Below, one piece after another: positions 29,165-37,955 of a stretch of DNA of 64,000 nt. The stretch lies in the NCBI RefSeq assembly GCF_008041935.1, contig NZ_VKAC01000004.1, positions 1 to 64,000 of the forward strand. The letters run 5' to 3'. How positions within the stretch are numbered: the first letter of the stretch is position 1; the number at the start of each line of letters is the position of its first letter. Under the pieces are notes generated by a model. The model did no database searches. It was not told the DNA's origin and saw only the letters and a program-made list of their open reading frames with translations. Both the position numbers and the translations under genes were made by a program. This stretch comes from Quadrisphaera setariae. Lineage in GTDB: Bacteria > Actinomycetota > Actinomycetes > Actinomycetales > Quadrisphaeraceae.

Positions 29165-29310
29165 ACAGGTCATGAGCGTCAGCGACAAGCCCTGGCTAGC
29201 TGACCGGCAACCCTCGCTCTGCGGCGGGGTGCCCCAGGTGACGACCCGACCGGACCCGCACCACGCGGTCTCCGGTAAGCGCGAGGCCCCTCCTCGGGGC
29301 AGAAGACGAG
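29165..29310 (+). ncRNA. SAM-IV riboswitch (first copy)
   Basis: The leader begins GGTCATGAGCGTCAGCGACA and continues through GCTGACCGGCAACCCT, GCGGCGGGGTGCCCCAGGTG and ACGACC, the SAM-IV aptamer core. P1 pairs 29168-29171 with 29243-29246, and P2 pairs GTCAGC (29178-29183) with GCTGAC (29199-29204). A GCCCC/GGGGC hairpin (29286-29300) lies just upstream of the GACGAGG ribosome binding region, so control could be at translation initiation. SAM binding would shut off the LLM-OsmC genes. The 3' limit is approximate. Confidence 0.9.
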
Positions 29311-29318
29311 GTGTCGCG

Positions 29319-30236
29319 ATGTCCTCCCTGCACCTGGCGCTCGCCCTCGGCGGCGACCGCCCCAGCTCCCCGGCCACCTGGGCGCACCTCGTGCGCGAGG
29401 CGGAGGTCGGCCTGCTCGACCTCGTCACCCTCGACGTGCCCCCGAGCACCGTGACCGCTGCAGACGCCGCGGCGCAGGACGCCGACGGCCTCGACGCCGT
29501 CCGCGCGGCCACCCGCCTGGCCGCTACGACGCGGTCCATCGGCCTCGTGCCCACCGTGAACGTCGGGCGCACCGACCCCGGTCAGATCGCCCGCGCCCTC
29601 GACGCCCTCGACCGCGCCAGCGGCGGCCGCGCCGGGGTGCACCTGCAGGTGCCCGTGCCCGCCGACGAGCAGGGCTGGGTCACCGCCGTCCGCCGCCGCT
29701 CCGCGGCCACCCACCCGGGCGCCGGGCCGCTGGTCGCGCTGCCCGGCCGGCCCGGCCGTGGCAGGCACACGCTCCCCGGCCGTGCTGACCTGGCCTTCGT
29801 CACCCCGCGTGACGTCGCCGCCGCCCAGCGCCTCGCCGCGGCAGCGCGCAGCGCCGAGCAGGCGCCGCGGCACCTGCTCGCCGACGTCGTCGTCGTCCTC
29901 GACCACCACGAGGAGCACGCGCTCGAGCGCGCAGCGCACGCCGCCCACCAGGCCGCCCCGAGCACCGCACCCGACGGCGCGCAGGTGTTCGCCGGGACCC
30001 CCGCGCAGCTGGCCGACCTGGCCCTCGACCTCCACGGCGCCGGGCTGGCCGGCCTGCGGCTGCACCCCGCCGACCCCGCCCGCGACCTGCGGGGCATCAC
30101 GCGCGGCCTGGTGCCCGAGCTGCAGCGCCGCGGCGCCTTCCGCCGGGCCTACCGCGGCACCGACCTGCGCGAGCGCCTCTCAGACCAGCGCCCGGCCGAC
30201 CAGGACCTCGCCGCGCAGCACCGCACCGCCGCCTGA
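29319..30236 (+). CDS. Compact luciferase-like (LLM) flavin monooxygenase under SAM-IV control
   Basis: A 305-aa LLM-fold protein: LHLALALGGDRPSSPATWAH, REAEVGLLDLVTLDVPP and RSIGLVPTVNVGRTDPGQIA. It is paralogous to the 426-aa LLM encoded at 34130; they share HLAxALxG, LLADVVVVLD, FAGTPxxLADLAL and LVPELQRRGAFRxAYxxxxLRERL. It lacks about 120 residues, largely the middle segment of the larger protein. ATG 29319 follows the riboswitch. Probable FMN-dependent monooxygenase of a sulfur compound; the shortening makes activity uncertain. It is followed by osmC. Confidence 0.85.
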   Translation: MSSLHLALALGGDRPSSPATWAHLVREAEVGLLDLVTLDVPPSTVTAADAAAQDADGLDAVRAATRLAATTRSIGLVPTVNVGRTDPGQIARALDALDRASGGRAGVHLQVPVPADEQGWVTAVRRRSAATHPGAGPLVALPGRPGRGRHTLPGRADLAFVTPRDVAAAQRLAAAARSAEQAPRHLLADVVVVLDHHEEHALERAAHAAHQAAPSTAPDGAQVFAGTPAQLADLALDLHGAGLAGLRLHPADPARDLRGITRGLVPELQRRGAFRRAYRGTDLRERLSDQRPADQDLAAQHRTAA

Positions 30237-30297: not shown

Positions 30298-30774
30298 ATG
30301 CCGCTGCACCCGAAGGGTTCCGTCCTGACCTTCGAGCTCCACGGTGAGGGGGAGGGCGTCCTGCAGGAGGTCGCCATCACCGGCGGGCCGCACGTGGTCC
30401 GCGCCGAGGGCCACCCCGCGTTCGGGGGCACCGACAGCGCCCCCAGCCCGCTCGACCTCGTGCTCGCCGGCTACGTCTCCTGCAACCAGGTGACCTCGAA
30501 GATCGTGGCGCTGGGCCAGGGCGTCGAGCTGGGCGAGTTCCACGGCCGGGTCGACGCCGAGCTCGACAACTCCGTGCTCGTCTTCGGCGCCGAGGGCAAC
30601 CCCTCCTTCTCGAAGGTGACGCTCACCGTGGAGCTGGAGACCGACCTCGACGACGCCGCCTTCGAGGCCTTCGTCGCCGAGGTCAGCCGCCGCTGCCCGG
30701 TGACGCAGCTGCTGCAGCGCGCCGGCACCGAGGTGGTCAACCGCTGGACGAACAAGGTCCGCGTCGCCGCCTGA
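30298..30774 (+). CDS. OsmC/Ohr-family thiol peroxidase-like protein
   Basis: A 158-aa OsmC-family protein. The two redox Cys positions are in LVLAGYVSCNQVTSKIVALG and SRRCPVTQLLQRAG. Family members reduce organic hydroperoxides or act on sulfur metabolites; OsmC genes are frequent in sulfonate/organosulfur clusters. ATG 30298 follows an ACGAGGAGA ribosome binding site. It is in the first SAM-IV transcript and ends at a strong terminator (30796-30830). Confidence 0.9.
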   Translation: MPLHPKGSVLTFELHGEGEGVLQEVAITGGPHVVRAEGHPAFGGTDSAPSPLDLVLAGYVSCNQVTSKIVALGQGVELGEFHGRVDAELDNSVLVFGAEGNPSFSKVTLTVELETDLDDAAFEAFVAEVSRRCPVTQLLQRAGTEVVNRWTNKVRVAA

Positions 30775-30795
30775 CCTGCGACGTCCCACGTCCGA

Positions 30796-30830
30796 GCGGG
30801 CCGGGGGAGCCCCTGGCACCCCCGGCCCGC
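30796..30830 (+). terminator. Terminator after osmC
   Basis: GCGGGCCGGGGG (30796-30807) pairs perfectly with CCCCCGGCCCGC (30819-30830) over an 11-nt loop, 22 bp after the osmC stop and 53 bp before the second SAM-IV riboswitch. It separates the two riboswitch units. Confidence 0.85.
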
Positions 30831-30882
30831 CCGCGTGGCAGGGTCCACGTCAGCTCCACAGCTCCACCAGATGCACGGACCC

Positions 30883-31020
30883 ACAGGTCATGAGCGTCAG
30901 CGACAAGCCCTGGCTCGCTGACCGGCAACCCCCACTCGCGGCGGGGTGCCCCAGGGGAAGACCCGGCAGGGCTCGACCGAGCCCCTGTCAGCGCGACAGC
31001 CCCTCCCCGGGGCAGGACAC
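30883..31020 (+). ncRNA. SAM-IV riboswitch (second copy)
   Basis: From GGTCATGAGC (30886) the sequence is almost identical to the first copy through GACAAGCCCTGGCTCGCTGA and CCGGCAACC, then diverges in the P3 loop and rejoins at GCGGCGGGGTGCCCCAGG. P1 is 30886-30889 with 30960-30963. Downstream hairpins GGGCTC/GAGCCC (30969-30984) and CTGTC/GACAG (30985-30999) fit the peripheral helices. It precedes the leader peptide, ABC importer and LLM genes. Confidence 0.9.
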
Positions 31021-31034
31021 GGACGGACACGACC

Positions 31035-31130
31035 ATGACGACGACGAGCGCCCTGCTGACGCGCCGCCGCCACGTCGACCTCCTGCGCACCGCCGCGCAG
31101 CGCTGTCGCCTCGTACGCCGCTCCGCCTGA
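31035..31130 (+). CDS. 31-aa regulatory leader peptide of the LLTRRRHVDL type
   Basis: A 31-codon frame from ATG 31035 to TGA 31130 encodes MTTTSALLTRRRHVDLLRTA, then AQRCRLVRRSA. LLTRRRHVDLLR plus a Cys shortly before the C-terminus is the signature of the actinobacterial putative leader peptides that precede sulfur/cysteine uptake operons. Ribosome stalling at the Cys codon (TGT) when cysteine is scarce would influence downstream expression. It lies 15 bases after the riboswitch. A 7-bp hairpin (31146-31175) follows the stop codon. Confidence 0.85.
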   Translation: MTTTSALLTRRRHVDLLRTAAQRCRLVRRSA

Positions 31131-31145
31131 GCCCACCGCCCTCCC

Positions 31146-31175
31146 GCCGGGCTCGGCGGCCCGCTGGCGCCCGGC
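31146..31175 (+). promoter_or_regulatory. Candidate attenuator hairpin after the leader peptide
   Basis: GCCGGGC (31146-31152) pairs with GCCCGGC (31169-31175), 15 bases after the leader-peptide stop. Its position fits an attenuator responding to ribosome stalling, but the whole 143-bp gap to the permease gene is GC-rich and other folds are possible. Confidence 0.4.
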
Positions 31176-31273
31176 GATCCGCCGACGCGCCCGCCACTCC
31201 TGGATCCACGCCCTGACGCACCCCTGCGCCGACTGCAGCGGGCGTGCGCCACCCCCTGCCCTGAAGGACCCCC

Positions 31274-32287
31274 GTGAGCGACAGCCCGACCGCCGTGCGC
31301 CCCGCGCCGGCACCCCCGAGACCCCCGGACGACGAGCGCGTCGTCCCGCTGCGCCACCCCTGGCGCTGGGTGGCCACCGCCCTCGTGCTGGTGCTGCTCG
31401 CGCAGGTGGTGCACGGGCTGGTGACCAACCCCTTCTACCAGTGGGACCGGTTCGGCTACTGGTTCTCGCGGCCCGTCATCCTCGAGGGGCTGCTCATCAC
31501 CTTGCAGGTCACGGCGTACTCGGCCGTGCTCGGCCTGGCCGGAGGCGTGCTGCTGGCGCTCATGCGCCTGTCGGGCAGCCCCGTGCTGCAGGTGGTCAGC
31601 TGGACGTTCACCTGGGTGTTCAGGTCCGTGCCGCTGATCGTCGTCCTGATCTTCCTCTACAACGTCAGCGCGCTGTACCCCGAGCTCGGCCTCGGCGTCC
31701 CCTTCGGGCCGCAGCTCGTCACGTTCGGCACCGCCGACCTCGGCGACGAGATGCTCATCGCGGTGGTCGCCCTCAGCCTCAACGAGGCGGCGTTCGCCTC
31801 CGAGGTGGTCCGCGGCGGGCTGCTGTCGGTGGACGCCGGGCAGCGCGAGGCCGCCGCGGCGCTGGGCCTGCCGCGCGCGTACCGGTTCTGGCGGATCGTC
31901 ATGCCGCAGGCGCTGCGCTCGATCGTGCCGAACTACGTCAACCAGCTCATCGGCATCATCAAGGGCAGCTCGCTGGTGTTCTACGTCTCCCTGCTCGACC
32001 TGTTCGGCACCGTGCAGACGATGGGCGCCACCTACCCCGGCGACGTCATCCCGCTGCTGCTCGTGGCCACCACCTGGTACGTCGTGCTGACCAGCGTCGT
32101 CTCCGCCGCCCAGTTCCACGTCGAGCGGGCCTTCGCCCGCGGCGCCGACAGGACCCCGCCGCCCACGCCGTGGCAGCGCGTCCGGGCCGGGGCCGGTGAC
32201 CTGGTCGCGAAGGTCCGCGCGGCGTCGTCCCCGGCCGCCCCGGTCAGCCCCCGGCCCGGCGGCCCCGCCGGCGGGAGCGTCCGGTGA
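31274..32287 (+). CDS. Polar amino-acid-type ABC transporter permease
   Basis: A 337-aa HisM/TcyB-like permease with a ~50-residue cytoplasmic extension and a Pro/Ala-rich tail. Family features are ILEGLLITLQVTAYSAVLGL, VFRSVPLIVVLIFLYN and the EAA loop GQREAAAALGLPRAYRFWRI. GTG 31274 has a GAAGGACC ribosome binding site. The ATPase gene overlaps by 4 bp. With the riboswitch and leader peptide upstream, a sulfur amino acid or thioether is the likely substrate. Confidence 0.9.
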   Translation: MSDSPTAVRPAPAPPRPPDDERVVPLRHPWRWVATALVLVLLAQVVHGLVTNPFYQWDRFGYWFSRPVILEGLLITLQVTAYSAVLGLAGGVLLALMRLSGSPVLQVVSWTFTWVFRSVPLIVVLIFLYNVSALYPELGLGVPFGPQLVTFGTADLGDEMLIAVVALSLNEAAFASEVVRGGLLSVDAGQREAAAALGLPRAYRFWRIVMPQALRSIVPNYVNQLIGIIKGSSLVFYVSLLDLFGTVQTMGATYPGDVIPLLLVATTWYVVLTSVVSAAQFHVERAFARGADRTPPPTPWQRVRAGAGDLVAKVRAASSPAAPVSPRPGGPAGGSVR

Positions 32288-33045
32288 GCGCCGCGGTGGA
32301 GGTGGTGCGGGCGAGCAAGTCGTTCGGGGACCGCCGCGTGCTCGACGACGTGTCCCTGTCCGTGCCCGCCGGGCGCGTCGTGGCGATCATCGGGCCGTCC
32401 GGCTCGGGCAAGTCGACGCTGCTGCGCGCCGTCAACCACCTCGAGGAGCTCGACGGCGGGCACGTCGAGGTGGGCGGGGAGCTGGTGGGTGTTCGCCGGC
32501 ACCGCGGCGTGCTGAGGGAGGTCGCCGAGCCGGTGGTCCTGCGGCAGCGCCGCCGGATCGGGTTCGTCTTCCAGTCCTTCAACCTCTTCGGCCACCTCAC
32601 CGCGCTGGAGAACGTGGCGGCCGCTCCCGCCGCCACCGGACTGCTCAGCCGGGCCGAGGCCAGGCAGCGGGCGGCCGCGCTGCTGGCGCGCGTGGGCCTG
32701 GCCGCCCACACCGGCGCCTACCCGCGCCAGCTGTCCGGCGGGCAGGCGCAGCGCGTGGCCATCGCCAGGGCGCTGGCGATGGACCCCGAGGTCATCCTCT
32801 TCGACGAGCCCACCTCCGCCCTCGACCCGGAGCTCGTGGGCGAGGTGCTCGAGGTGATCCGCGACCTCGCGGCCAGCGGCACCACCCTCGTCATCGTCAC
32901 CCACGAGATCGCGTTCGCCCGCGAGGTGGCCGACACCGTCGTCTTCCTCGACGCCGGCCGCGTCGTGGAGAGCGGACCGCCCTCGGCGGTGCTCGACGCC
33001 CCGCAGCACCCCCGCACCCGCGACTTCCTCCGCCGCGTCCGCTGA
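32284..33045 (+). CDS. Amino-acid ABC transporter ATP-binding protein
   Basis: A 253-aa ABC ATPase with Walker A GPSGSGKSTLLR, Q-loop FVFQSFNLFGHLTALEN, signature QLSGGQAQRVAIARALAMDP and Walker B EVILFDEPTSALDPE, then the His switch VTHEI. The NLFxHLTALEN loop is typical of GlnQ/TcyC-like polar amino-acid importers. GTG 32284 lies within the stop region of the permease gene (GTGA). Confidence 0.94.
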   Translation: MSAAVEVVRASKSFGDRRVLDDVSLSVPAGRVVAIIGPSGSGKSTLLRAVNHLEELDGGHVEVGGELVGVRRHRGVLREVAEPVVLRQRRRIGFVFQSFNLFGHLTALENVAAAPAATGLLSRAEARQRAAALLARVGLAAHTGAYPRQLSGGQAQRVAIARALAMDPEVILFDEPTSALDPELVGEVLEVIRDLAASGTTLVIVTHEIAFAREVADTVVFLDAGRVVESGPPSAVLDAPQHPRTRDFLRRVR

Positions 33046-33101: not shown

Positions 33102-34115
33102 ATGTCCCGACCGCACGCCCCCACCGCCCTGTTCGCCACCGCCGTCAGCGCCGTCCTCGCGCTGTCGCTGTCCGCCTGCGGCGGCTCGTCCGCCGACGCC
33201 GCCGGCAGCCCGTCGGCCGCGCCCGGCACCGTCACCGTCGGCGCCCTGTCCAACGGCGCGGCCACCGAGACCACCCTCGACGTGCCGGTCGTGCAGGAGA
33301 TCCGCGACGAGCTCCCGGCCGAGGTCAAGGAGTCGGGCGAGCTCGTCATCGGCGTCGGTGCGCTGCCGTCGGGCTTCCCGCCGCTGGCCTACGTCGGCGA
33401 CGACCAGAAGACCCTCACCGGCTCCGAGCCCGACATCGGCCGCCTGGTCGCCGCGACCCTCGGCCTGGAGCCCGTGCTGGAGAGCTCCACCTGGGAGAAC
33501 CTCTTCGTGGGCATCGACTCCGGCAGGACCGACGTCGGGTTCAGCAACATCACCGACACCGAGGAGCGCCAGCAGAAGTACGACTTCGCCTGCTACCGCA
33601 AGGACGAGCTGGCGCTCGAGGCCCCCGAGGACGCCTCCTGGACGTTCACCGGCGACCCGTCGGTGCTCGCGGGGAAGACCATCGCGGTGGCTTCGGGCAC
33701 CAACCAGGAGCGCATCCTCCTGGAGTGGCAGCGCCAGCTGCAGGCCGCGGGCCAGACCCTGGACGTGCAGCGCTTCGCCGACACCACCTCCACGTACACC
33801 GCGCTGAGCTCGGGCCGCATCGACGCGAACTTCGGTCCCAACCCGACGGCCGCCTACCACGTCACGCAGACGAAGGGCACGCCGCAGGCCACCAAGATCG
33901 TCGGGACGTCGTCCGGAGCGGGCGCCTCCCTGCAGGGCCTCATCTGCGCCACCTCCAAGAAGGACAGCGGCCTGGCCGAGCCGGTCGCCGACGCCCTGAA
34001 CCACCTCATCTCCTCCGGTCAGTACGCCAAGACCCTGGAGGCCTGGAACCTCTCGAACGAGGCCGTGCCGACGTCGGAGATCAACCCTCCCGGCCTGCCG
34101 CTCACCGACCAGTGA
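33102..34115 (+). CDS. ABC transporter substrate-binding lipoprotein (family 3-like)
   Basis: A 337-aa binding protein with lipobox LSLSACGG (lipidated Cys26). The mature domain matches family 3: SGELVIGVGALPSGFPPLAY, GSEPDIGRLVAATLGLEPVL, GRTDVGFSNITDTEERQQKY (DF) and GKTIAVASGTNQERILLEWQ. It supplies substrate to the two upstream components. ATG 33102 follows AGGAG. Ligand inferred as a cysteine- or methionine-derived compound from context only. Confidence 0.9.
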   Translation: MSRPHAPTALFATAVSAVLALSLSACGGSSADAAGSPSAAPGTVTVGALSNGAATETTLDVPVVQEIRDELPAEVKESGELVIGVGALPSGFPPLAYVGDDQKTLTGSEPDIGRLVAATLGLEPVLESSTWENLFVGIDSGRTDVGFSNITDTEERQQKYDFACYRKDELALEAPEDASWTFTGDPSVLAGKTIAVASGTNQERILLEWQRQLQAAGQTLDVQRFADTTSTYTALSSGRIDANFGPNPTAAYHVTQTKGTPQATKIVGTSSGAGASLQGLICATSKKDSGLAEPVADALNHLISSGQYAKTLEAWNLSNEAVPTSEINPPGLPLTDQ

Positions 34116-34129
34116 CGGAGGCTGTACCA

Positions 34130-35410
34130 GTGACGTCCTCTGCTCGCAGGGAGCACCTGCACCTCGCCGTCGCGCTGGACGGCGCGGGGTGGCACCCCGC
34201 CGCCTGGCGCGAGCCCACCGCCCGCCCCACCGAGCTGTTCAGCGCGGCGTACTGGACCGACCTCGTCCGCGAGGCCGAGGCCGGCCTGCTCGACCTCGTC
34301 ACCGTCGAGGACGCGCTGCGCCTGCAGTCCGACGACCCCAGGTACACGGGCCGCCCCGACGAGCGCACCGACAGGGTCCGCGGCCGCCTCGACGCCGTGC
34401 TCCTCGCGGCGCGGCTCGCGCTGGTCACCGAGCACATCGGCCTCGTGCCGAGCGCCACGGCCACGCACACCGAGCCGTTCCACCTGTCCAAGGCCATCGC
34501 CACGCTCGACCACACCACCCGCGGGCGCGCCGGGGTGCGGGTGCAGGTCTCGCTGCGCCCCGACGAGGCCGCCCAGTTCGGGCGGCGTGCTGAGCTGGTG
34601 GCCCTCGCCGAGCTCGCGCCCGGCCGCACCCCGCCGCCCGCCCTCGTCGAGGACGTCTTCGACGAGGGCCGCGACTGGGTGGAGGTGCTCCGCCGCCTCT
34701 GGGACTCCTGGGAGGACGACGCCGAGATCCGCGACGCCGCCACCGGCAGGTTCGTCGACGCCGCCAAGCTCCACACCGTCGACTTCACCGGTCCGCGCTT
34801 CTCCGTGCGCGGCCCGTCCATCACGCAGCGCCCGCCGCAGGGCCAGCCGCTCGTGGCGGCGCTGTCGCACGTGCCCGTGGCGCACCGGTTCGTCGCGCGG
34901 TGCGCGGACCTGGGCTTCCTCACCCCCCACGACGACGACGAGGCGCGCCGGCTCGTCGCCGCCGTCCACGACGAGCGGGAGGTCCAGCCCCCCTGGCCGG
35001 ACGGCGCGGGCGACCAGCCGCTGCGCCTGCTCGCCGACGTCGTCGTCGTCCTCGACCCCCGGCCCGGGGCCGCGGCGGAGCGGCTGGCCCGCCTCGACGA
35101 GACCGCCGGCACCCCGCTCTCCCGGAGCAGCGACGCCCTCGTCTTCGCCGGCACCCCCGGCGAGCTCGCCGACCTGGCCCTGGCGTGGCGCGACGCGGGG
35201 CTGGACGGGCTGCGGCTGCGGCCCGCCGCCCTCCCCGACGACCTGCACGCCATCACGCGCACCCTCGTGCCCGAGCTGCAGCGCCGAGGGGCCTTCCGCA
35301 CCGCGTACGCCGAGCGCACGCTGAGGGAGCGCCTCGGCCTGGCGCGACCCGCCAACCGCTACGCCCTCACCGGCCACCACGACACCGCCACCACGGAGAG
35401 CAGCCGATGA
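34130..35410 (+). CDS. LLM-class flavin monooxygenase (full-length paralogue)
   Basis: A 426-aa LLM protein: HLHLAVALDGAGWHPAAWRE, WTDLVREAEAGLLDLVTVED, HIGLVPSATATHTEPFHLSK and ATLDHTTRGRAGVRVQVSL. The middle segment DWVEVLRRLWDSWEDDAEIR and HTVDFTGPRFSVRGPSITQR is the part missing from the 305-aa paralogue at 29319. It resembles NtaA/SnaA/YxeK-like FMN monooxygenases that use a separate reductase, none of which is encoded here. GTG 34130 has ACGGAGG upstream. Coupled by ATGA to the next gene. Confidence 0.88.
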   Translation: MTSSARREHLHLAVALDGAGWHPAAWREPTARPTELFSAAYWTDLVREAEAGLLDLVTVEDALRLQSDDPRYTGRPDERTDRVRGRLDAVLLAARLALVTEHIGLVPSATATHTEPFHLSKAIATLDHTTRGRAGVRVQVSLRPDEAAQFGRRAELVALAELAPGRTPPPALVEDVFDEGRDWVEVLRRLWDSWEDDAEIRDAATGRFVDAAKLHTVDFTGPRFSVRGPSITQRPPQGQPLVAALSHVPVAHRFVARCADLGFLTPHDDDEARRLVAAVHDEREVQPPWPDGAGDQPLRLLADVVVVLDPRPGAAAERLARLDETAGTPLSRSSDALVFAGTPGELADLALAWRDAGLDGLRLRPAALPDDLHAITRTLVPELQRRGAFRTAYAERTLRERLGLARPANRYALTGHHDTATTESSR

Positions 35411-36801
35411 GCCGCCACAGCACGCGCAAGCGCCAGGTGCACCTCGCGGCGCACTTCCCCGGCGTCAACAACACCACCGTGTGGTCCGACCCCGCCGCGG
35501 GCAGCCACATCGACCCGGACTCCTTCGTCCGCTTCGCGCAGACCGCCGAGCGCGGGAAGCTCGACTTCATGTTCCTCGCCGAGGGGCTGCGGCTGCGCGA
35601 GCACGCCGGGCGGATCTACGACCTCGACGTCGTCGGCCGGCCCGACACCTTCACCATCCTCGCGGCGCTCGCGGGCGTCACCACGCACCTCGGGCTGACC
35701 GGCACCATCAACTCGACGTTCAACGAGCCGTACGAGGTGGCCCGGCAGTTCGCCACCCTCGACCACCTCTCCGAGGGCCGGGCGGCGTGGAACGTCGTCA
35801 CCAGCTGGGACGCGTTCACGGGCGAGAACTTCCGCCGCGGCGGCTTCCTGGGAGCCGGCCAGCGCTACGACCGCGCCCGGTCCTTCCTGGAGACGGCGCT
35901 GGAGCTGTTCGACTCCTGGCGCGGAGACGAGGTCGTGGCCGACCAGGCCACCGGCCAGTTCCTGCGGGCCCCCGGGCCCGGGGCGTTCTCCCACCGCGAC
36001 GCCTTCTTCGACATCGCCGGCCACACCACCGTGCCCCGCAGCCCGCAGGGCCGGCCGGTCGTCTTCCAGGCCGGTGACTCCGAGGAGGGCCGCGAGTTCG
36101 CCGCCGAGCACGCCGACGCCATCTTCAGCCGCCACGCGACCCTGGAGGAGGGGCAGCCGTTCTACGCCGACGTCAAGGCCCGCCTCGCGAAGTTCGGTCG
36201 TCAGCGCGACGAGCTGCTCGTGCTGCCCGCCGCCACGTTCGTGCTCGGCGACACCGACGCCGAGGCCGAGGAGCTGGCCCGCGAGGTGCGCCGCGCGCAG
36301 GTCAGCGGCGCCACCGCCATCGTCTTCCTCGAGCAGGTGTGGAACCGCGACCTGTCGCACCTCGACCCCGACGGCCCCCTGCCCGACGTCGACCCCGTGG
36401 TCGGCGAGCAGGTGATGAGCCAGGGCCGCGCCAGCGTGCGGATGCACCGCGACCCGCTGGCCACCGCGAAGGCGTGGCGCGAGCGCGCCGAGGCGGAGGG
36501 CCTGTCGATCCGCGAGCTGATGATCGAGCAGACGGCGCGGCAGACCTTCGTCGGGTCGCCGACCACCGTCGCCGACCAGGTCGAGCACCTCGTGGAGGCG
36601 GAGGCCTCCGACGGGTTCATCCTCGTCCCGCACCTCACGCCAGGCGGCCTCGACCCCTTCGTCGACCAGGTGGTGCCGATCCTCCAGGAGCGCGGCGTGC
36701 ACCGCACCGAGTACGAGGGCACCACCCTGCGCGACCACCTCGGCCTGCGGCCCCTGCCCGCCCCCGGCCTCCTCACGACGACGACGGGGGCACGCGCGTG
36801 A
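35407..36801 (+). CDS. NtaA/SnaA/DszA-family FMN-dependent monooxygenase (YtnJ/CmoJ-like)
   Basis: A 464-aa monooxygenase of the NtaA/DszA group: RQVHLAAHFPGVNNTTVWSD, RFAQTAERGKLDFMFLAEGL, GLTGTINSTFNEPYEVARQF and SEGRAAWNVVTSWDAFTGEN. The mid-region PQGRPVVFQAGDSEEGREFA and the C-terminal VGSPTTVADQVEHLVE are typical. The group oxidises C-S or C-N bonds; the Bacillus relative CmoJ acts in S-substituted cysteine salvage. FMNH2 must come from a reductase elsewhere. ATG 35407 overlaps the previous stop (ATGA), and the next gene starts inside its stop. Confidence 0.92.
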   Translation: MSRHSTRKRQVHLAAHFPGVNNTTVWSDPAAGSHIDPDSFVRFAQTAERGKLDFMFLAEGLRLREHAGRIYDLDVVGRPDTFTILAALAGVTTHLGLTGTINSTFNEPYEVARQFATLDHLSEGRAAWNVVTSWDAFTGENFRRGGFLGAGQRYDRARSFLETALELFDSWRGDEVVADQATGQFLRAPGPGAFSHRDAFFDIAGHTTVPRSPQGRPVVFQAGDSEEGREFAAEHADAIFSRHATLEEGQPFYADVKARLAKFGRQRDELLVLPAATFVLGDTDAEAEELAREVRRAQVSGATAIVFLEQVWNRDLSHLDPDGPLPDVDPVVGEQVMSQGRASVRMHRDPLATAKAWRERAEAEGLSIRELMIEQTARQTFVGSPTTVADQVEHLVEAEASDGFILVPHLTPGGLDPFVDQVVPILQERGVHRTEYEGTTLRDHLGLRPLPAPGLLTTTTGARA

Positions 36802-37955
36802 GCACGCCGCTGGCCGTCCTCGACCTGACGCCCGTCCCCTCGGGCAGCACGGCCCGGCAGGCGCTGGCGAACAGCGCCGACCTCGCCGAGTCCGCGGAGC
36901 GCTTCGGGTACGCCCGCTACTGGGTGGCCGAGCACCACCTCAACCCCGGCGTGGTGGGCGTCTCGCCCGCGGTCGTCCTGGCGCTGGTCGCGGGCCGGAC
37001 GACCACCATCCGGCTCGGCGCAGCCGCCCTGCAGACGGGGCACCGCACGGTGCTGAGCGCCGTGGAGGACTTCGCGCTGCTCGACGCCGTCCACTCCGGG
37101 CGCATCGACCTCGGCATCGGGCGCCCCGGGGGGCCGCCGCGCGGACCCGACGGCTCGCTGCCGGCGCCCCCGCCGCCTCCCACGCGCGAGCAGGCCGAGG
37201 GGACCGTGGTCGACGGGCTGCGGGTGCCCGGGCCGTTCCCGCTGGGCCCGCTGCTCACGTCGCCGCGGTTCGCGGCGATCCCCGAGCTGGTCCCGGTGCC
37301 CGGGGCTGAGGCGCCGTCCTTCGCGCAGCAGGTCGACACCGTCCTCGGCCTCCTCGCCGGCACGTGGAAGTCCTCCACGGGCGTTCCCCTGCAGGTCCAC
37401 CCCGGCACCGGTGCCGACCTGCAGCTGTGGCTGTTCGGCAGCACCGGCGGCACCACCGCCGCCGTGGCGGGGGAGCGCGGCCTGCGCTTCGGCGCCAACT
37501 ACCACGTGGCCCCGCAGGGCGTCCTCGACGCCGCCCGCGCCTACCGGGCGGCCTTCCGCCCCTCCCAGGGCGCCAGCGGTCTGGCGCAGCCGCACCTGAC
37601 GGTGTCCGCCGACGTCGTCGTCGCCGAGACCGACGAGGAGGCCGAGCACCTGGCCGCCGGCTACGGCCCGTGGGTGCGCTCCATCCGCACCGCCGCCGGG
37701 GCCATCCCCTACCCCAGCCCGTCCGAGGCCGCCGACCTGGCATCTCCGGACCACTGGACCGACGACGACGACGCCCTGGTCCGCGACCGGCTCGCGACGC
37801 GCTTCGTCGGGTCTGCGCGGACCGTGGCCGACGGCCTGGAGCGCCTGCGCAGCGCCACCGGCGCTGACGAGCTGCTCATCACCACCACCACCCACGACCA
37901 CGCCGCCCGCGTCCGCTCCTACGAGCTGCTCGCCACCGAGTGGGGCGACCGGTGA
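36798..37955 (+). CDS. LLM-class flavin oxidoreductase (YtmO/MsnO8-like)
   Basis: A 385-aa LLM protein: LAVLDLTPVPSGSTARQALA, RFGYARYWVAEHHLNPGVVG, RLGAAALQTGHRTVLSAVED and HSGRIDLGIGRPGG. This MsnO8/YtmO-like form is typical of thioether and alkanesulfonate gene sets. A Pro/Gly-rich insert (PGGPPRGPDGSLPAPPPPP) follows. The start GTG 36798 overlaps the upstream stop, and the GNAT gene starts within its own stop. Substrate inferred from the operon. Confidence 0.9.
   Translation: MSTPLAVLDLTPVPSGSTARQALANSADLAESAERFGYARYWVAEHHLNPGVVGVSPAVVLALVAGRTTTIRLGAAALQTGHRTVLSAVEDFALLDAVHSGRIDLGIGRPGGPPRGPDGSLPAPPPPPTREQAEGTVVDGLRVPGPFPLGPLLTSPRFAAIPELVPVPGAEAPSFAQQVDTVLGLLAGTWKSSTGVPLQVHPGTGADLQLWLFGSTGGTTAAVAGERGLRFGANYHVAPQGVLDAARAYRAAFRPSQGASGLAQPHLTVSADVVVAETDEEAEHLAAGYGPWVRSIRTAAGAIPYPSPSEAADLASPDHWTDDDDALVRDRLATRFVGSARTVADGLERLRSATGADELLITTTTHDHAARVRSYELLATEWGDR

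Follow-up and report, generated by a model that had tools for sequence, protein, structure and literature searches.

Does a SAM riboswitch always control a gene directly, or can it control a second sensor? This question is raised by a locus of Quadrisphaera setariae in which a SAM-IV aptamer is followed by a short ORF with a cysteine codon and then by genes for an importer and for monooxygenases. The locus lies in the window, the whole stretch of 64,000 nt analysed here. A preliminary description of the region had proposed a two-input control of the AND type, built from the aptamer, a leader peptide and a hairpin. Sequence comparison gives good support for a single leader that carries two sulfur sensors in series, and it is fairly probable that SAM gates the loading of ribosomes onto a leader that responds to cysteine starvation.

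Organization of the leader region in the window

The aptamer and the cysteine-containing leader of the preliminary description were both recovered (Table 1). The aptamer matched the SAM-IV model RF00634 over its full length (model positions 1–116), and a spacer of 35 nt separated the end of the Rfam aptamer from the leader ATG, rather than the 15 nt given earlier. Within this spacer, 30999–31003 pairs with 31009–31013 to form a small GCCCC/GGGGC hairpin, and a weak Shine–Dalgarno-like sequence, GGACGG, is located at 31021–31026, 5′ of the leader. Rfam matched nothing in the window but two SAM-IV aptamers, about 1.6 kb apart and with genes between them; the locus is not a tandem riboswitch logic gate, which would have two RNAs of the aptamer or T-box type in a single leader, its second element being an ORF. 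Behind the other SAM-IV aptamer a closely similar GCCCC/GGGGC hairpin (29286–29300) is followed directly by an LLM-type gene (29319–30236), which provides a natural comparison without a leader. No promoter was found by a pattern scan of 30700–31400, and in 36 of the 63 composite loci described below a TAnnnT box stood no more than 20 nt upstream of the aptamer, a count made without a control.

Table 1. Features of the SAM-IV/leader locus and its surroundings in the window
Feature	Position	Strand	Evidence or remarks
Other SAM-IV aptamer in the window, not followed by a leader of this type	29168–29287	+	95.6 bits
SAM-IV aptamer (RF00634), putative first sensor	30886–30999	+	cmscan, 93.3 bits (gathering score 38), E 1.3e-15
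Spacer from aptamer to leader start	30999–31034	+	From sequence
Leader ORF, putative second sensor	31035–31130	+	ATG, 31 codons, MTTTSALLTRRRHVDLLRTAAQRCRLVRRSA, core LLTRRRHVDLLRTAAQRCR
Sole Cys codon of the leader (TGT)	31104–31106	+	Eight codons before the stop
Start of post-leader spacer, C > G, candidate Rho loading region	31131–31200	+	C skew comparison
ABC transporter permease, first gene predicted to be regulated (GTG start)	31274–32287	+	BPD_transp_1
ABC transporter ATPase	32284–33045	+	Best NCBIfam match cystine TcyN, 301.8 bits, below the cut-off of 406
Family-3 solute-binding protein	33102–34115	+	SBP_bac_3
Luciferase-like monooxygenase, NtaA/DmoA type, start not refined	34139–35410	+	Below NCBIfam cut-off
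NtaA/DmoA family FMN-dependent monooxygenase, start not refined	35413–36801	+	TIGR03860, 407.6 bits (cut-off 279.7)
MsnO8 family LLM oxidoreductase, start not refined	36786–37955	+	TIGR03558, 250.8 bits (cut-off 166.95)

The leader scored 25 bits (24.3 bits in the genome search) against the NCBIfam family NF042934 ‘putative leader peptide’, whose cut-off is 27, and no match above this cut-off was obtained across the whole genome. As a short ORF with an RRHVDL core located 5′ of sulfur-type genes, it is a close relative of NF042934 without being filed as a member. Against NF042933, the Cys-rich leader Ms5788A, it reached 20 bits (cut-off 45) and, with a single Cys codon and an aptamer upstream, it does not belong to the leaderless poly-Cys attenuators. 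The importer and oxidation genes expected downstream were present as an ABC permease, an ATPase, a binding protein and three luciferase-like monooxygenases, after which comes a GNAT protein.

Recurrence of the composite and controls for chance

Composite loci were sought in the genomes of 84,980 species using a gapped, exact-match pattern consisting of the SAM-IV 3′ core and, after it, a leader core whose Asp, Leu/Phe and Cys codons are at fixed spacing. Sixty stretches, every one with an actinobacterial title, gave 61 matches and represented 22 named genera, and this count is a lower bound because the pattern must match exactly. All 61 could be read as the leader core; the pattern itself demanded the Asp, Leu/Phe, Arg/Ser and Cys codons, which are therefore invariant by construction. 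These matches, together with two loci of the window's genome, make up the set of 63 loci. The window's genome has ten SAM-IV aptamers, two of which, that of the window and one at C1:608954 (L005), have such a leader behind them.

In GC-rich DNA, short ORFs are frequent (71 were listed in 11 kb), as would be needed for an aptamer to stand by chance next to a spurious ORF. A regular expression applied to stretches from the window's genome and its relatives found 94 distinct SAM-IV aptamers, seven of which had a leader-type ORF behind them; the seven leaders scored 47.8–67.6, the next best score among the 94 being 20.2. No leader was found on the antisense strand (0/94), upstream of the aptamers (0/38) or in shuffled sequences (0/282), and no control scored above 22. 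Chance proximity was ruled out by these controls and, given also the recurrence in 22 named genera, the coding selection and the SAM-I aptamer ends described below, it is extremely improbable as an explanation. Four loci without a regular-expression aptamer and the leader-bearing aptamer of L076 are missing from the set of 94, and two of the ten places with SAM-IV and a leader (G034 and G057) were read apart from it.

A leader profile was made from 50 leader cores, all of them linked to SAM-IV and the profile to that extent biased. Its use on 59 related genomes, the window's own included, gave 32 leaders (E ≤ 1e-3), of which ten were directly behind a SAM-IV and eight directly behind a SAM-I aptamer (18 of 32, coordinates compared by hand), one of these eight SAM-I aptamers scoring below Rfam's cut-off. 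The same 59 genomes contained 131 SAM-IV aptamers, ten of them with such a leader, and 95 SAM-I aptamers. In a phylum-wide census of 246 genomes (E ≤ 1e-4) leaders were found in 11 genomes, eight of which belong to one genus. The 25 new leader loci from this census were scanned with Rfam: 24 had no SAM aptamer upstream, none had a SAM-I aptamer, and one (L214, genome G226) had a SAM-IV aptamer directly upstream. Among the other 24, L207 also holds a SAM-IV aptamer, but 52 nt from the start of another, divergent leader (G207:C2:85366), which is not itself one of the 25 loci. The composite thus forms one branch within a larger family of leaders and is not the form usual for that family.

Several variants were seen among these loci. 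The SAM-IV aptamer of L214 is followed by a family leader that lacks Cys and ends LLRVSSAY. In the window's genome, a family leader without SAM-IV (L186, C1:324962, minus strand) ends DRCR with a TGT codon, and by eye the gene behind it resembles a dicarboxylate/cystine symporter. In the same genome a pair of SAM-IV aptamers on opposite strands stand back to back with about 100 bases between them (L003 and L009, C11:49524–49839), and another SAM-IV aptamer (L001, C6:238448) precedes a 10-codon ORF, MTPPSLRRGA, that has a good Shine–Dalgarno site; the ORF behind the SAM-IV aptamer of L008 starts similarly, as judged by eye.

Evidence for translation of the leader

Single-base codon changes were compared over 214 pairs from the 63 loci. 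In frame, 774 were synonymous and 326 non-synonymous, against 145 and 1091, and 134 and 953, off frame, and on this comparison the leader is under coding selection. Conservation extended to positions not forced by the search pattern, namely Arg at −13 (59/63), Ser at −3 (55/63) and Ala at −2 (55/63). The pattern allowed TGT or TGC at the Cys codon, and TGT was present in all 63 composites; within genes, TGT accounted for six of 137 Cys codons in the window and 43 of 479 in 60 loci. The last Cys codon of 36 leaders without SAM-IV, a set that includes L175 behind a sub-threshold SAM-I aptamer, was TGT in 31 and TGC in four, with one leader lacking Cys. The residue after Cys was Arg in 41 of the 63 loci, Pro in 20, Leu in one and Gln in one. 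A stop codon followed within three codons of Cys (Cys counted) in 43 of the 63, the maximum being 24 codons and the window having eight.

In the SAM-IV loci the leader started a median of 43 nt after P4 (interquartile range 40–46, n = 62), within a range limited to what the pattern could find; L155, in which P4 was misparsed, was left out here and in the folding test of the leader Shine–Dalgarno site. Genes standing directly behind SAM-IV most often began 40–50 nt after P4 (22 of 86), and the leader therefore sits where a riboswitch of this type often has its target gene.

Leaders behind SAM-I aptamers

Fourteen loci with SAM-I and a leader were read, one of them in the window's own genome (C16:13818, L233). 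The aptamer ended in GATGGAGG in 12 loci, in GATGGGAG in one and in GATGGGAA in one, and the leader started 4–9 nt past the aptamer end in the 12 GATGGAGG loci and 4–12 nt past it over all 14. The Cys codon was TGT in 13 of the 14. In P1 of these composites GATGG pairs with CCATC, the outer P1 pairs often being non-standard, and the Shine–Dalgarno sequence of the leader, GGAGG, partly overlaps P1 in 12 of the 14 loci, with only part of it in firm P1 pairs. In SAM-I riboswitches P1 is stabilised by SAM binding, and in view of this overlap SAM should hinder access to the leader Shine–Dalgarno site.

Among 20 SAM-I stretches, three of which were chosen for having a leader and five for being in the window's own genome, 12 ended in GATGGAGG, an ending that also precedes long genes. 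The next ORF was a family leader in six stretches, another short ORF in six and a long ORF in eight. SAM-I and SAM-IV form one Rfam clan, so the aptamer is not of independent origin in the two types of composite.

Other small ORFs were seen at the same site. In three genomes of the same genus (L226, L227 and L234, the last at C16:31731 of the window's genome) the SAM-I end GATGGAGG serves an 8-codon ORF of the form V-S-x-C-M-x-x-R (VSACMPQR, VSSCMTPR and VSPCMLER), a possible Cys-Met mini-leader. The SAM-I aptamer of L225 is followed by an ORF of 32 aa with several Cys codons near its end, a different Cys-rich leader.

Genes behind the composites

Fourteen other composite leaders, among them examples from Kitasatospora and Streptacidiphilus, precede relatives of the window's permease (43–71 % identity), and relatives of the window's monooxygenases were the first gene in eight loci (BLAST cluster). 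By eye, further first genes included flavin reductases, GNAT proteins, a cysteine-dioxygenase-like group and binding proteins. The GNAT-like genes, also recognized by eye, stood behind the composite in Klenkia, Trujillonella, Geodermatophilus, Modestobacter, Blastococcus and Goekera (L104, L113, L115, L121, L136, L139, L144, L145, L160, L161 and L163) and would be an unexpected target of sulfur control.

The region after the leader

The hairpin that had been placed after the leader corresponds to GAGCCC/GGGCUC, which spans the leader stop codon within the spacer 31128–31273. This spacer folded no better than its shuffled versions (z −0.89, 38 of 200 at least as stable) and a scan of 30700–31400 for terminator-like sites gave none; the locus does not have the form of a classical attenuator with an intrinsic terminator, and the hairpin gains no support as an expression platform. 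Over 62 loci the region round the leader stop was mildly more structured than shuffled sequences (mean z −0.92, 12 loci below −2).

In 61 of 62 loci C outnumbered G over the 70 nt past the leader stop (mean skew 0.279). The control means were 0.060 for sequence that follows gene stops (n = 81) and 0.096 for sequence that precedes gene starts (n = 67), with P values of 3e-14 and 3e-10, respectively. One of the 63 loci had too short a sequence after the stop and was left out of this test and of the fold test. The same skew was present behind leaders without SAM-IV (C > G in 35 of 36, mean 0.273), which indicates that the C-rich spacer belongs to the leader module. RNA that is rich in C and poor in G is preferred by Rho. 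A ribosome stalled at the Cys codon, which is near the stop in 43 of the 63 loci, would cover the start of this spacer; taken together, these features are suggestive, but not proof, of a role for Rho as in leader-peptide attenuation of the mgtL/tnaC type.

Comparison with known systems

No description of a SAM riboswitch followed by a Cys leader was found in the available text of the open-licence literature searched, in which the combination therefore looks undescribed, in line with the earlier statement that no well-described example was known. Each half has known relatives. The aptamer is a full-length SAM-IV riboswitch, from which the locus differs in that the first ORF is a leader peptide instead of an enzyme or transporter gene. 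The leader shares its RRHVDL core and its position 5′ of sulfur-type genes with the actinobacterial family NF042934 (cis_reg_atten); the window copy is just under the cut-off and stands behind a SAM aptamer, as do 18 of the 32 leaders in the 59 genomes. The available accounts of the mycobacterial poly-Cys leaders (Ms5788A, NF042933; Canestrari et al., 2020, as cited in PMC13236596 and PMC9094748) likewise describe short ORFs with Cys codons before sulfur genes, whereas the window leader has one Cys codon and no run, is far below the NF042933 cut-off and is not leaderless. Mycobacterium, Propionibacterium and Bifidobacterium have candidate Cys leaders according to the accessible part of PMC1262725, and the reannotation of S. 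lividans, in the excerpt available, lists SAM-IV and leader peptides separately (PMC8079986). The cysS motif uORFC-8-2 also has Cys codons in a uORF; in the available text these are tandem, mostly UGC codons with an intrinsic terminator, in contrast to the one UGU codon and the empty terminator scan here (PMC8632094).

On the available descriptions, two systems are nearest in logic. The tandems of SAM-I with a T-box(Met), of which nine examples are given in the sections available of PMC9481103, also join a SAM sensor and an amino-acid-starvation sensor in one leader, but their second sensor is a tRNA-binding RNA and not a translated leader; the terms ‘leader peptide’, ‘uORF’ and ‘cysteine’ are absent from the text of that paper. 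The mgtA leader with MgtL combines a leader peptide and RNA structure with a Rho-dependent output; in the portions available of PMC11282234 and PMC11552253 its signal is Mg2+, relayed by the translation of MgtL, with no separate aptamer controlling the loading of the leader.

Proposed mechanism and alternatives

In the mechanism proposed, what the SAM-IV aptamer would control is the transcript's first ORF, a leader peptide and not an enzyme gene. At high SAM, translation of the leader (or the transcript itself) would be shut off and the genes would be off, and at low SAM ribosomes would load onto the leader. With Cys-tRNA plentiful, these ribosomes would finish the leader and leave at its stop, exposing the C-rich RNA, and transcription would probably be ended by Rho; with Cys-tRNA scarce, they would stall at UGU and the importer and monooxygenase genes would be expressed. 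The gate would be NOT SAM AND NOT cysteine. Both modules, with their order and spacing, can be read from the sequences, as can their recurrence, the coding selection, the TGT codon, the C-rich spacer and the overlap with P1 in SAM-I; for SAM binding, the direction of the switch, ribosome stalling and the action of Rho we infer the behaviour given above. The serial arrangement of the sensors is supported by the occurrence of the pair in 22 named genera, by coding selection and by two aptamer families standing before the same leader family. This part of the two-input control claimed earlier has held, and AND logic, with expression only when SAM and cysteine are both low, is what it most naturally suggests; the hairpin as its platform has not. 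The SAM-I cases lend the AND logic anatomical support, because in them the leader Shine–Dalgarno site overlaps P1. Several observations weigh against the proposed mechanism: no switch of access to the leader Shine–Dalgarno site by the pseudoknot tail was apparent when the SAM-IV loci were folded (n = 62, P 0.94), GGAGG is only partly in firm P1 pairs in the SAM-I cases, the Shine–Dalgarno-like sequence of the window leader is weak and its Cys codon is eight codons from the stop, the leader of L214 has no Cys, and 24 of the 25 leaders of the phylum-wide census have no SAM aptamer upstream.

The output might not involve Rho. If a stalled leader ribosome opened a downstream Shine–Dalgarno site rather than blocking Rho, the leader would act by translational attenuation, the mode ascribed to cysteine genes of M. 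smegmatis in the available text of PMC13236596, and the mild excess of structure round the leader stop would fit. Folding, however, gave no indication of the leader region masking the downstream Shine–Dalgarno site, to which access did not differ whether the leader was free or stalled (41 loci, 13 up, 11 down, P 0.97; the other 22 of the 63 had no clear Shine–Dalgarno gene start or one too close), and the window's own spacer folds no better than shuffled sequence; translational attenuation is on balance unlikely. The sensing step might also differ. The conserved nascent chain, and not the Cys codon alone, could sense a thiol or another metabolite and stall the ribosome as an arrest peptide. 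The unforced conservation of Arg, Ser and Ala would then be explained, as would the single Cys codon of the window leader, unlike the poly-Cys leaders, and the SAM-IV leader of L214 that has no Cys at all. The retention of the rare TGT codon in 63 of 63 composites fits codon-level sensing better, and an arrest peptide is judged slightly less likely still than translational attenuation.

It is likewise doubtful, to about the same degree as translational attenuation, that the two sensors work independently, with the riboswitch ending transcription before the leader and the leader acting alone on the transcripts that escape. The logic would be the same, without SAM controlling translation of the leader. 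In favour of this, aptamer and leader are separated by a GC-rich hairpin in the window, and similar ones are visible in other loci. Against this stand the absence of terminator-like sites from 30700–31400, the overlap of the leader Shine–Dalgarno site with P1 in 12 of 14 SAM-I composites, and a tendency to translational riboswitches in Actinomycetota that is cited in the available text of a 2025 paper (PMC12452182).

Implications for sulfur control in Actinomycetota

The gating of a cysteine-starvation leader by SAM may be one case of a general sensor relay in Actinomycetota, in which a SAM riboswitch delivers its output at the ribosome-binding site of a conserved UGU cysteine leader. Such a relay would use two aptamer families, SAM-IV and SAM-I, and would place other small ORFs (the Cys-Met octapeptide and the Cys-rich ORF) at the same site behind SAM-I; riboswitches would load attenuators and not genes, with AND logic over SAM and Cys-tRNA. 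This generalization is put forward tentatively, its likelihood falling a little short of even. The rare and strictly kept UGU codon would offer a direct test of codon-level cysteine sensing, and both inputs could be tested separately. If the proposal is true, a riboswitch can control a ribosome-based second sensor instead of a gene, two-input logic can be accommodated within one leader and without a protein, and a setting would be provided for a widespread actinobacterial leader family that NCBI names only ‘putative’.
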